A model generated the notes under the pieces. The model was given only the letters and a program-made list of their open reading frames with translations, was not told where the DNA came from and ran no database searches. Shown one piece after another: positions 34,522 through 38,243 of a stretch of 48,807 bases of DNA (within the stretch, counting starts at the first letter, position 1; every line of letters begins with the position of its first letter). The translations under genes were made by a program, and so were the position numbers. The stretch is from an uncultured Alphaproteobacteria bacterium (GTDB taxonomy: Bacteria > Pseudomonadota > Alphaproteobacteria > HIMB59), in the NCBI GenBank assembly GCA_902527525.1, contig CABZOW010000005.1, positions 1 to 48,807 on the forward strand. Direction: 5' to 3'.

Positions 34522-35652
34522 ATGGCAAAAAAAATAATTAAAAATAAGTCCATTAAGAGAAGAAATTTCCTTAAAGGCGCCGGTGCTGCAGCACTTGGTG
34601 CTGCCGCAGTTTCTTCTTTGCCAGCACCTGCGATATCAGGCGGGCATAAAGAATGGATTGTTTGCTGTGCATTTGGTAAGGCCGGTCTTTTAGGGCAAGC
34701 TATTGCTGCATATGCAGACAATATAAATAAATACTCTGATAAACTAAAAATGAAAGTTTACTACCCTGGTGAACTCGTTCCTGGCCTGCAGTCTTTCGAT
34801 GCTGTAAGAGAAGGCACTGCACAAATGGCTTATGGTGCACCTTATTATTGGACCAATGTATCAGATGCAATTGAATTTGTAGCTACTGGACCTTTTGGTA
34901 TGAATGCAATGGAACAAAATGCTTGGTGTTATTATGGTGGTGGAATTGAAGCTGCTGATAAAATTTATAATGAGCTCGGTGTAAAATTTTTACCAATGGG
35001 TAATACTGGTAACCAAATGGGGGGCTGGTTCAATAAAGAGATGAACACAGCTGACGATTATAAAGGTTTAAAAATGCGTATGCCTGGTCTTGGTGGAAGA
35101 ACAATTGGAAAATTAGGAGCAACAGCTGTTTTGATGGGAGGTCCTGATATTCTTACTTCATTAGCTTCTGGTGCGATTGATGCAGCAGAATGGATTTGTC
35201 CTGTTGCAGATTTAGGTCTTGGAATGCATCAAGCAGCTAAGTTCTATTATGGACCTGGTTGGCACGAGCCTTCAACTCTTCTTGATCTTTCTATTGACTT
35301 GAAGGAGTGGGAGGGACTTGATGCAGATACTCAAGCACTCATGATGGAAATGGCAAAGGCATTTAACGTTGATGTATTTAGTCGTTTTCAAGCCTTAAAT
35401 GGTCCAGCTTTAGGTAAGTTACTTAATGAACATGGAGTTCAACTTAAGACTTTCCCTGATGAGTTACTTATAGCTCTTGGTAATGCAGCGGGCGAAGTAA
35501 TGGAAGAGAGAGGATCAATTGACTCTCAAACTAAAGCCATTTGTAATCATATTCTATCGTTTAGAAAAAATATTATGGATTGGTCTACAAAAGGTGAATC
35601 AGAATTTGCTAGAATTAGAAATTTACCTTTCAAATTTCCGGATTCTGTATAA
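34522..35652 (+). CDS. dctP: TRAP transporter solute-binding protein, TakP-like
   Basis: Periplasmic binding protein with a Tat-type signal (KRRNFLKGAGAAALGAAAVS; cleavage near PAPAISGG). Conserved blocks are YYPGELVPGLQSFDAVREGT, FNKEMNTADDYKGLKMRMPG, GAIDAAEWICPVADLGLG and YYGPGWHEP. The last is typical of the TakP/FcbT1 group that binds 2-oxo acids and similar carboxylates. A strong Shine-Dalgarno sequence (AGGAGG) and a following terminator suggest high expression. Convergent with its membrane subunits, an unusual layout. 376 residues. Confidence 0.9.
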   Translation: MAKKIIKNKSIKRRNFLKGAGAAALGAAAVSSLPAPAISGGHKEWIVCCAFGKAGLLGQAIAAYADNINKYSDKLKMKVYYPGELVPGLQSFDAVREGTAQMAYGAPYYWTNVSDAIEFVATGPFGMNAMEQNAWCYYGGGIEAADKIYNELGVKFLPMGNTGNQMGGWFNKEMNTADDYKGLKMRMPGLGGRTIGKLGATAVLMGGPDILTSLASGAIDAAEWICPVADLGLGMHQAAKFYYGPGWHEPSTLLDLSIDLKEWEGLDADTQALMMEMAKAFNVDVFSRFQALNGPALGKLLNEHGVQLKTFPDELLIALGNAAGEVMEERGSIDSQTKAICNHILSFRKNIMDWSTKGESEFARIRNLPFKFPDSV

Positions 35653-35664
35653 GCAATTTAATTT

Positions 35665-35686
35665 GGGGGGGCGACAAAGCCCCTCC
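35665..35686 (+). terminator. Terminator between dctP and dctM
   Basis: GGGGGGGC and GCCCCTCC pair over 8 bp (one G-T) around GACAAA, 12 bases after the dctP stop and 9 before the dctM stop on the other strand. The G/C-rich stem stands out in this genome. The T tract is poor (GTCTCTTATT), so it may work in both directions or as an mRNA 3' stabiliser. Confidence 0.6.
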
Positions 35687-35694
35687 GTCTCTTA

Positions 35695-37068
35695 TTAAAA
35701 TAATTTATCTGGTAACCACGTAGCTATTTCTGGAAAAAAACCAACTATAAATAAAGCAACTATTTGAACTGCTATAAAAGGCATAACGCCCTTATACATA
35801 TTTTGGGTATCTATTTCCTTTGGAGCCACTCCCCTTAAAAAGAAAAGTGAAAAACCAAATGGTGGAGTCATAAAACTAGTTTGTAAATTTAAGGATATTA
35901 AAATTCCTAGCCATAAAGGATCAGCACCATTGGCAATTAAAACAGGTCCAACTAAGGGAACTATTACAAAAATAATTTCAATATAATCTAAAAAAAAACC
36001 TAGGACAAAGATTGCAGCCATTACAATAAATAATGCTCCATATAATCCTCCAGGAAGTGTTCCTAAGAAATGCTCAATCATTTCATCACCATTGAAGCCT
36101 CTAAAAACTAGAGAGAACATTGAGGCGCCGATGAGTATCACAAATACAAAAGAACTTAATTTAACAGTACTAAGAGATACATCTCTGACATTCTTATAAT
36201 TTAATTGACCCTTTAAAGCTGCTATTATAGCTGCACCCACTGCACCCACTGATGCAGACTCAGTTGGAGTCGCTATACCCATTAAAATAGATCCTAGAAC
36301 CAGAAGAATTAATATTAATGGGGGGAGAATTGAGGTAATAGCATTGGTATAAATTTCACCTCTAGTTCTTTCAGTCTCAATGGGCGGACAACTATTAGGA
36401 TTAATTCTTGCATAAAAGTATATCAATACAATAAACATCCCCACCAACATCAAACCAGGCATCAATGCCCCTGCAAATAAATCAATTGCTGTGACGGGTT
36501 CGGGAACTAAGCTACCTGTCATCATAGCTGCCTCTTCATTTGCGCCTTGTAGTATGGAGGCAAGTAAAATTAAAACTATCGAAGGTGGAATTATTTGGCC
36601 TAAGGTTCCAGCAGCGCAGATAGTGCCAGTAGCTATTTTTTGATCGTACCCAGCTTTAATCATAGCAGGTAATGAAAGTGTGCCCATAGTGACTACAGTT
36701 GCTCCAACAATACCGGTAGATGCTGCAAGCATCATACCAACTAAGACTACCCCAATACCTAAGCCACCCTTAATAGATCCAAATAACTCACCGATTGATT
36801 GTAGTAACTCTCCAGCTATTTTTGTTTTCTCTAACATTATTCCCATAAAAATAAATAAAGGAACTGCGACTAAAGCCTCGTTTGTCATTGTTCCAAAAAT
36901 TCTTTGAGGAAAAAAACCAAGCATTCTAAAATTAAATATTTCTAGAGCATCACCAATAAAAGCAAATATTAGTGCAGAGCCAGCCAGAGTGAAGGCAACA
37001 GGAAAGCCAAAGAGAAGCAACACCAAGGTGCTAAGAAACATTATAATTGCTAAAACTTCAGGTGTCAT
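35695..37068 (-). CDS. dctM: TRAP transporter large permease subunit
   Basis: 457 residues, about 12-13 membrane segments, ion-coupled transport subunit. Hallmarks are FGFPVAFTLAGSALIFAFIGD, VAVPLFIFMGIMLEKTKIA, GATVVTMGTLSLPAMIKAGYD, TICAAGTLGQIIPPSIVLILL and SASVGAVGAAIIAAL. These match the DctM/FcbT3 branch, agreeing with the TakP-like binding protein. It overlaps dctQ by 11 bases and is convergent with dctP. Confidence 0.95.
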   Translation of the reverse strand: MTPEVLAIIMFLSTLVLLLFGFPVAFTLAGSALIFAFIGDALEIFNFRMLGFFPQRIFGTMTNEALVAVPLFIFMGIMLEKTKIAGELLQSIGELFGSIKGGLGIGVVLVGMMLAASTGIVGATVVTMGTLSLPAMIKAGYDQKIATGTICAAGTLGQIIPPSIVLILLASILQGANEEAAMMTGSLVPEPVTAIDLFAGALMPGLMLVGMFIVLIYFYARINPNSCPPIETERTRGEIYTNAITSILPPLILILLVLGSILMGIATPTESASVGAVGAAIIAALKGQLNYKNVRDVSLSTVKLSSFVFVILIGASMFSLVFRGFNGDEMIEHFLGTLPGGLYGALFIVMAAIFVLGFFLDYIEIIFVIVPLVGPVLIANGADPLWLGILISLNLQTSFMTPPFGFSLFFLRGVAPKEIDTQNMYKGVMPFIAVQIVALFIVGFFPEIATWLPDKLF

Positions 37069-37573
37069 TACGCTCTGAAATATTATTTATTGACTTGATA
37101 ATATTTGAAATTGATTGAATAAATAAAAATATACAGAAAAATAAAATTGCACTTTTTAGTATATATAATGCTGGCAACCCTCCCACTTCTCTTGATATTT
37201 CGTTTATTTGAATAGATCTTGTTACAAAAGTAAAACTGTATTTCCAAATTATAAATAGAAATGGGAAAACAAGAATTATGTTTCCTAAAATGTCTACAAT
37301 GCTTTTATACTTCTTTGAGGCATCCCTGTAAAACACATCTATTCTTACATGTTCGTTTGAAAGGTAAGTAAAACCAGCTCCCAACATAAATATAAATGCA
37401 TGTAACCACACATAGCTTTCTTGCATCCATATAAAGCTGATACCAAAGCCGTATCTTAGAATCACTACCGTAAAAACAACCAAAACCATAAGCACTGCAA
37501 ATAATCCACATAGATACCCCACAGCTTTATTAATGGTATCTAAGATCTTTGCTAGTTTGATCAAAAATAACAT
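37058..37573 (-). CDS. dctQ: TRAP transporter small permease subunit
   Basis: 171 residues with four hydrophobic segments. Family features are VVILRYGFGISFIWMQESYVWLHAFIFMLGAGFTYLSNEHVRIDVFY, the DctQ core, and the C-terminal LPALYILKSAILFFCIFLFIQS. No Shine-Dalgarno sequence is visible before the start. The leader region 50 bases upstream holds the structured element at 37621-37720, which may belong to this transcript. Confidence 0.92.
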   Translation of the reverse strand: MLFLIKLAKILDTINKAVGYLCGLFAVLMVLVVFTVVILRYGFGISFIWMQESYVWLHAFIFMLGAGFTYLSNEHVRIDVFYRDASKKYKSIVDILGNIILVFPFLFIIWKYSFTFVTRSIQINEISREVGGLPALYILKSAILFFCIFLFIQSISNIIKSINNISERNDT

Positions 37574-37620
37574 AGCCGAGGATTATATATGGAGAAATGA
37601 CATATTAAAGTAACTTAATT

Positions 37621-37720
37621 AAAGGTCGAGGTGCCAACTTTATTTGTAAATAAAGCTTTTTCTCATGCGGGGTGAGATTCGGCACCTACAAAACATAATG
37701 TTTTCTTGATCGACCGCTTT
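37621..37720. ncRNA. Candidate structured RNA element between dctQ and sdhC
   Basis: Five nested helices, all Watson-Crick. P1 is GGTCGA (37624-37629) with TCGACC (37710-37715). P3 is GGTGCC (37630-37635) with GGCACC (37681-37686). Inside P3 are hairpins CTTTATT/AATAAAG (37638-37655) and TCTCA/TGAGA (37661-37677, loop TGCGGGG). Between P3 and the closing arm of P1 is AAAAC/GTTTT (37690-37704). This is a branched, riboswitch-like architecture. Strand is undecided: on plus it would lead sdhCDAB (162 bases upstream), on minus dctQM (50 bases upstream). I see no terminator tail. It does not match any riboswitch consensus I can recall. Confidence 0.6.
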
Positions 37721-37761
37721 AAATAATAGAAGATTTATTTAGTTTTGCAGGCTTGAAATAT

Positions 37762-37803
37762 ATCAAATTAAGAATTTGATCAACATTTTTTCCACAATTT
37801 GAT
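37762..37803. promoter_or_regulatory. Repeated AATTTGAT operator-like sites upstream of sdhC
   Basis: ATCAAATT-AAG-AATTTGAT is a perfect 8-bp inverted repeat (37762-37780), and a third AATTTGAT recurs at 37796-37803, 23 bases from the second. TATACT follows a few bases later and could be the sdhC -10. This suggests a regulator site on the TCA operon promoter. The rest of the 304-base gap holds the structured element and no ORF I trust. Confidence 0.45.
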
Positions 37804-37877
37804 TAATTTATACTACGCATGAATTAATAAAATAATAGCTTTTTACTATAAGATTTTTTTGAATATATTTCTTTTCT

Positions 37878-38243
37878 ATGGCTCCATTGTCACCACATTT
37901 ACAAATTTACAGGCCTTTTTTAACTATGATTTTCTCTATTACTAGCAGAATAGGCGTTATAGCATTTGCATTTTCAATTCCTTTCTTCGCAATTTGGTTA
38001 GGTAGTGCAAACATACTTCCTCAGCTCAATGTTCTATTAACAATGTTCATTAACTTGTTACCAATAAAGTTGATCTTTATTTTTTGGTTTTTTATTTTTA
38101 ACCATCATTTATTGAACGGTTTTAAATATTTTCTATGGTCTTTTGCAATCGGAATGGAAATTAAAAATGTTTATTTAACTACATACATCATATTAGTAAT
38201 AAATATTATAATGACATTAGCATTCACATCGATGATATTCTGA
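37878..38243 (+). CDS. sdhC: Succinate dehydrogenase cytochrome b556 subunit
   Basis: Membrane anchor of complex II, 121 residues, three hydrophobic segments. The N-terminal LSPHLQIYRPFLTMIFSITSR is the family signature. Ser20 and Arg24 correspond to the E. coli quinone-site Ser27/Arg31. NHHLLNGF near residue 76 carries the heme-ligand His (E. coli His84). The usual SxxHR His and the GxRH His are replaced (SITSR; GFKY). Overlaps sdhD by one base. Confidence 0.92.
   Translation: MAPLSPHLQIYRPFLTMIFSITSRIGVIAFAFSIPFFAIWLGSANILPQLNVLLTMFINLLPIKLIFIFWFFIFNHHLLNGFKYFLWSFAIGMEIKNVYLTTYIILVINIIMTLAFTSMIF

Follow-up and report, generated by a model that had tools for sequence, protein, structure and literature searches.

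The RNA locus and its fold

The 48,807-nt stretch of DNA analysed here at full length (the window) holds, between the divergent start codons of dctQ (37573, minus strand) and sdhC (37878, plus strand), a gap occupied by a conserved branched RNA encoded on the minus strand (Table 1). A sequence-only reading had placed an RNA-like element with five mutually compatible helices at 37621-37720. All five are found where it put them, and the position holds, while the extent is corrected to 37624-37715. The same reading had described a hairpin with a G-rich loop, TGCGGGG; the hairpin exists, but on the RNA strand its loop reads CCCCGCA and is C-rich. As shown by covariation, helix P1 encloses P2 and P3, and P3 in turn encloses P4 and P5. 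The RNA is about 92 nt long here, 80-93 nt in most relatives and 127-131 nt in three. In three deep-branching relatives (G013, G015 and G024; L043, L045 and L046), P2 is expanded into a branched arm around the same core. We also note a second GGCAC after P4 in L043, L045 and L046, which could compete with the P3 strand.

Table 1. Features in and around the dctQ–sdhC gap, by position in the window.
Feature	Positions	Strand	Remarks
dctQ	37058..37573	minus	TRAP transporter small membrane subunit (PF04290)
TATAAT box	37582..37587	minus	8 nt before dctQ start codon; predicted own dctQ promoter, leaderless-type
Structured RNA	37624..37715	minus (dctQ sense)	folding, homologues, covariation, wobble pattern
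P1 3' strand, CGACC	37624..37628	minus	compensatory C-G to U-A and G-C to A-U
P3 3' strand, GGCACC	37630..37635	minus	exchanges U-A/C-G/U-G and G-C/A-U
P5 hairpin, CTTTATT-TACA-AATAAAG	37638..37655	minus	variable sequence with covariation
P4 hairpin, CTCA-CCCCGCA-TGAG	37662..37676	minus	near-invariant
P4 loop, CCCCGCA	37666..37672	minus	proposed recognition/seed loop; invariant, predicted unpaired
P3 5' strand, GGTGCC	37681..37686	minus	covariation
P2 hairpin (AAAAC/GTTTT)	37691..37703	minus	variable
P1 5' strand, GGTCG	37711..37715	minus	first RNA bases; proposed +1 at 37715
-10-like box, TATTAT	37723..37728	minus	-13 to -8 of proposed start; 7 nt before P1
Hexamer CCTGCA	37746..37751	minus	-36 to -31; 17 nt from -10-like box; weakly conserved
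TATATT box	37864..37869	plus	8 nt before sdhC start codon; likely sdhC promoter, with TTTACT at 37842-37847
sdhC	37878..38243	plus	PF01127; first gene of divergent sdh operon

The pairing goes beyond chance, as had been claimed, on both strands: folding of the minus strand gives z = -4.00 (0/200 dinucleotide shuffles as good) and of the plus strand z = -3.15 (2/200). Comparison among relatives adds to this. Across 25 distinct sequences, standard pairs fill 95.1% of the pair cells (shuffled mean 91.5, sd 0.4) and two-sided changes occur at 12 pairs (shuffled mean 4.5, sd 1.3), values from an alignment that was fitted to the structure and so leans towards it, with counts inflated by kinship. All five summary measures of the fitted alignment exceed the shuffles. 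To allow for both the fit and the kinship, the changes were recounted on a protein tree. This yields 7 compensatory branches, 42 one-sided changes that keep the pair and 15 that break it, compared with 0-1, 25-33 and 37-50 in controls with the partners slid by 1-3 columns; compensatory base changes thus lie above the controls, as is expected of a structured RNA. The events are carried by P1, P3 and P5. P4 hardly varies, and covariation therefore neither supports nor contradicts it.

When the pairs are read on the minus strand, the cells contain 28 G-U and 2 A-C, and the plus strand shows the reverse. Since G-U wobble dominates A-C in this orientation, we place the RNA on the minus strand. Of the two leaders initially proposed, for dctQM on the minus strand or for sdhCDAB on the plus strand, only the strand of the former is retained; the wobble pattern rules out a plus-strand sdhC leader.

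Distribution and relation to known families

At the DNA level, a search across 100 related genomes finds the RNA throughout the genus of this genome, and a covariance model recovers it in 42/52 genus genomes at one copy each, together with one extra 20.5-bit match in G019. Of the ten in which it was not recovered, nine have no assembled sdhA, and in the tenth (G008) the contig ends inside sdhC. Wherever the dctQ–sdhC gap is assembled in the genus, the RNA is therefore present (42/42 genomes), and in every case it lies between dctQ and sdhC. The doubt whether homologues with compensatory changes exist, raised along with the original description, is settled by these 42 genomes and the branches counted above. 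By the covariance model the RNA is absent from 110 other genomes of the order. Among 385 Alphaproteobacteria genomes there is no homologue outside the genus except a 21-bit chance match; the viral contigs searched hold none, and its own genome holds no second copy. A core-pattern scan of 84,980 species genomes, which misses members whose P3 starts with TGTGCC, yielded 12 stretches from marine alphaproteobacteria of the HIMB59 type and a single match in Arachnia, which scores on the core alone.

In the sister family, no RNA is found beside dctPQM or sdhC, even with search filters off, and yet the transporter is orthologous (DctM 74% identical). There, dctPQM follows a parC-like gene and sdhC follows a different, unrelated gene. 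As a separate observation, the dctPQM cluster (34522-37573, with dctP convergent to dctQM) lies beside sdhC in the genus and after the parC-like gene in the sister family (L193-L196), and so has moved.

Rfam 15 (4227 models, among them riboswitches, ribozymes, 6S, SRP, tmRNA and RNase P) finds two tRNAs only over the whole window. At E up to 10, the best match of the element scores 20.3 bits where the threshold is 47, and the match to HOLDH (E 0.075) scores 15.8 bits where it is 319.4; both are at chance level. The elements of eight relatives give no match, and those of L045 and L040 give nothing credible at E up to 5. No known family is thus matched above threshold by the element or the relatives tested, in agreement with the initial impression that it fits none of the glycine, SAM-II, SAM-V, TPP and cobalamin consensus patterns. 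Three specific kinships were considered and rejected. An SRP RNA (RF00169) is present separately, above threshold, in 11/11 genomes, here on another contig. For 6S RNA (RF00013), the locus has no match and folds into a branched structure instead of a long hairpin carrying a central bubble. The occurrence of CCCCGCA in the 3' acceptor strand of initiator tRNA is a 7-mer match expected by chance. We note in passing that RF00013 detects no 6S RNA anywhere in the 11 genus genomes scanned (G000, G030 and nine others), all of which carry SRP RNA. Our literature search found no report on HIMB59 small RNAs or on this motif, which is no proof of absence. We conclude that the RNA is a new family, unknown to Rfam, of the small structured bacterial RNA type, whose function is inferred.

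HIMB59-type marine alphaproteobacteria correspond to AEGEAN-169/SAR11 subclade V (PMC10308909), an abundant and little-studied ocean lineage (PMC10308909, PMC11366302). Their genomes are highly reduced and have few regulators. Kept in every member with the locus assembled and bearing an invariant loop, the RNA is a defined candidate regulator that lends itself to testing.

Conservation, promoter-like signals and possible roles

Conservation within the RNA is concentrated in a single hairpin. Among the 25 distinct sequences, the P4 stem shows one change, A to G, and the CCCCGCA loop, predicted unpaired with a probability of at least 0.99, shows zero variation. The other helices drift in sequence, and so do the junction bases (GAAT, GAAC, GGGT or TAT among relatives); we find no conserved aptamer core in junctions or internal loops, only the near-invariant P4 hairpin and its loop. 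This pattern looks more like a loop displayed for recognition than like a pocket for a small molecule. A protein-coding or uORF reading fails, as lengths of 80, 81, 82, 89-93, 127, 130 and 131 break every frame, and the frames opened by the P4-stem AUG, which is invariant, differ greatly in length and sequence. Since evolution has preserved both the fold and the hairpin of 15 letters, the RNA very probably has a function, most likely gene regulation by base pairing.

The gap contains three promoter-like signals. In front of the RNA, the -10-like box keeps an A at its second position in 23/23 representatives and a T at its end in 21/23 (pattern TAnnnT); it is conserved at the right distance in 20/23, and in L043, L045 and L046, the three genomes that diverge most, it is displaced or missing. 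The upstream hexamer reads TCTGAA or TCAAAA in relatives, unlike TTGACA, and no TTGACA-like -35 box was found before the RNA. The TATAAT of dctQ is exact in most representatives, 8-9 nt before AUG. Together with the sdhC box, this layout suggests that the dctQ and sdhC messages may be leaderless; a rough count over 200 first genes of one complete genome from the genus shows that a start-proximal -10 layout is not general. No terminator-like site for an intrinsic terminator lies within 37400-38000, and the bases 3' of P1 are CUA, in some lineages UUUU, a stretch not conserved in the lineage of this genome.

Several neighbouring elements are also conserved. An inverted repeat, ATAGt-tttt-ACTAT with flanking GCATGAATTAATAAAATA (37838-37852, plus strand), overlaps the proposed sdhC -35 region, is kept even in the most divergent genus members and looks like a regulator binding site. 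A second conserved block, TGTGGAAAAAATGTTGATCAA (about 37780-37800, minus strand), lies about 75-90 nt ahead of the first base of the RNA and looks like a DnaA box with a single mismatch or a site for some other protein. In the complete genome G030 (1,410,127 bases), the cumulative GC skew minimum falls near 294 kb, the RNA locus is about 48 kb away at 246.5 kb, and a parA-like gene lies near the minimum at 337 kb; the RNA locus may thus be close to the replication origin.

We favour a stand-alone base-pairing RNA over a dctQM leader or riboswitch because of its putative own promoter, the separate promoters predicted for its neighbours and its single invariant open loop. According to this reading, which we hold tentatively and at slightly below an even chance, the locus would encode a clade-specific small RNA transcribed on the minus strand from a promoter just upstream of P1, as judged from the sequence. 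The transcript of about 80-130 nt would fold into a scaffold that presents the P4 loop as a single-stranded recognition site, and this loop may pair in trans with G-rich sites in mRNAs and block ribosome binding.

The next reading, unlikely but the closest competitor, is a cis-acting 5' leader of dctQM, in which transcription would proceed from P1 into dctQ and a ligand or protein at P4 would alter the stability of P1 and P3 and thereby dctQM expression. The transcript may indeed run on into dctQ, since no conserved intrinsic terminator follows P1. In all representatives the RNA lies on the dctQ strand and 47-54 nt ahead of dctQ, but this constant spacing is weak evidence because the spacing on the sdhC side is nearly constant too. 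It also begins at the proposed transcription start, as the SAR11 glycine riboswitch is reported to do (PMC5069720). The proteins of known structure most similar in sequence to DctP are keto-acid-binding and related TRAP binding proteins; a keto acid would therefore suit as a signal, and a 2-oxo acid would be the natural one for such a leader. However, the conserved TATAAT of dctQ would bypass a leader, there is no SD sequence to mask, and the AU-rich spacer contains no conserved alternative pairing partner that we could find. Likewise, a search downstream of the RNA revealed no riboswitch expression platform, be it a terminator or start-site masking. In addition, the junctions, the usual site of small-molecule pockets, drift while one terminal hairpin is near-invariant, and the orthologous sister-family dctPQM does without the RNA. 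For these reasons (drifting junctions, no conserved terminator or SD sequestering, a separate dctQ promoter box), the metabolite-sensing role first proposed for the element is left without support. Even as a dctQM leader only, the RNA would remain a family new to Rfam.

Alternatively, the P4 hairpin could be a protein recognition site, not an RNA seed, and the transcript a protein-binding small RNA acting as sponge or scaffold. A 5-bp stem with a 7-nt loop is a common format for protein recognition, and near-invariance of both stem and loop would agree with it. Against this, we recognise no known binding motif, the loop is not the GGA of CsrA and no protein can be named, which makes this reading improbable. 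An operator or cruciform acting at the DNA level, or a sequence kept without any role as RNA, would suit the position between two divergent promoters, where operators are often found, but fails to predict one-strand wobble and has to face both the branched multi-helix covariation and the constraint on loop and hairpin; we give it very little credence.

Candidate target and comparison with known systems

Loop complements near start codons were scanned in 788 ortholog pairs from two related genus genomes. A single real gene, ftsZ, carries the full 7-nt complement in both genomes, at the position of the ribosome-binding site; a second match proved to be a spurious frame antisense to 16S rRNA. The ftsZ site, (T)GCGGGG, sits 4-6 nt before ATG, and in 29 genus genomes it reads TGCGGGG in 26/29 and CGCGGGG in 3/29, with GCGGGG in 29/29. 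The predicted 7-bp duplex of loop and ftsZ has about -15 kcal/mol. Among 120 permuted loops keeping CCCC, 6% gave at least one equally good conserved match located at a ribosome-binding site. Upstream of ftsZ in two sister-family genomes no G-rich site was listed, but the pattern used fixed part of the start-codon context. Two pairings closer to the locus were rejected: that of the loop with the dctQ coding sequence (TGTGGGG, 37517 region, minus strand) occurs in close relatives only, and GCCGA pairing with a UCGGC close to the start of dctQ is not conserved.

The case for ftsZ as a target of the loop is suggestive but not established, since factors other than this RNA also keep G-rich ribosome-binding sites conserved. 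Irrespective of the RNA, GCGGGG is an unusual ribosome-binding site for ftsZ and is shared by all 29 genus genomes (e.g., L271, L256-L284). Pairing there would, speculatively, couple cell division to carbon state. The full proposal, that a new RNA family fixed in the genus represses ftsZ translation through its CCCCGCA loop and ties division to carbon supply from its place between a keto-acid transporter and the sdh operon, is a long shot. If the pairing does take place, it would join a short list of known connections between nutrition and cell division among streamlined marine bacteria.

To our knowledge, conservation of a terminal loop alone is not a feature of the glycine riboswitch class. 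Candidate structured RNAs of ‘Candidatus Pelagibacter ubique’ (the rpsB, rpsL, ffh, pntA and other motifs, and SAM-V; PMC2704228) are likewise compact, come from streamlined marine alphaproteobacteria and were found by intergenic comparison; the ones represented in Rfam give no match to the HIMB59 RNA. The text of PMC2704228 mentions no dicarboxylate, TRAP, succinate or sdh, and describes none of its RNAs beside dctQ or sdh. The SAR11 glycine riboswitch, found before glcB and gcvT (PMC5069720), resembles the HIMB59 RNA in its transcript start at P1 and in its position before a carbon-metabolism gene, but the latter has no match to its Rfam model.

Two further RNAs bear on the favoured reading. 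EcpR1, which modulates the cell cycle in Sinorhizobium (PMC4414408), is similarly an alphaproteobacterial trans-acting RNA tied to cell-cycle control; it differs in fold and target, and the sequence comparison, an Rfam scan only, gives no match. DicF is a small RNA of an E. coli prophage that acts on ftsZ mRNA (PMC5069750). By the same Rfam criterion it bears no sequence or structural relation to the HIMB59 RNA, which is chromosomal and branched, has a fixed 7-nt loop and is only predicted to pair. Should the ftsZ lead be right, however, the principle would be the same in both: a small RNA that pairs near the ftsZ ribosome-binding site and limits division.
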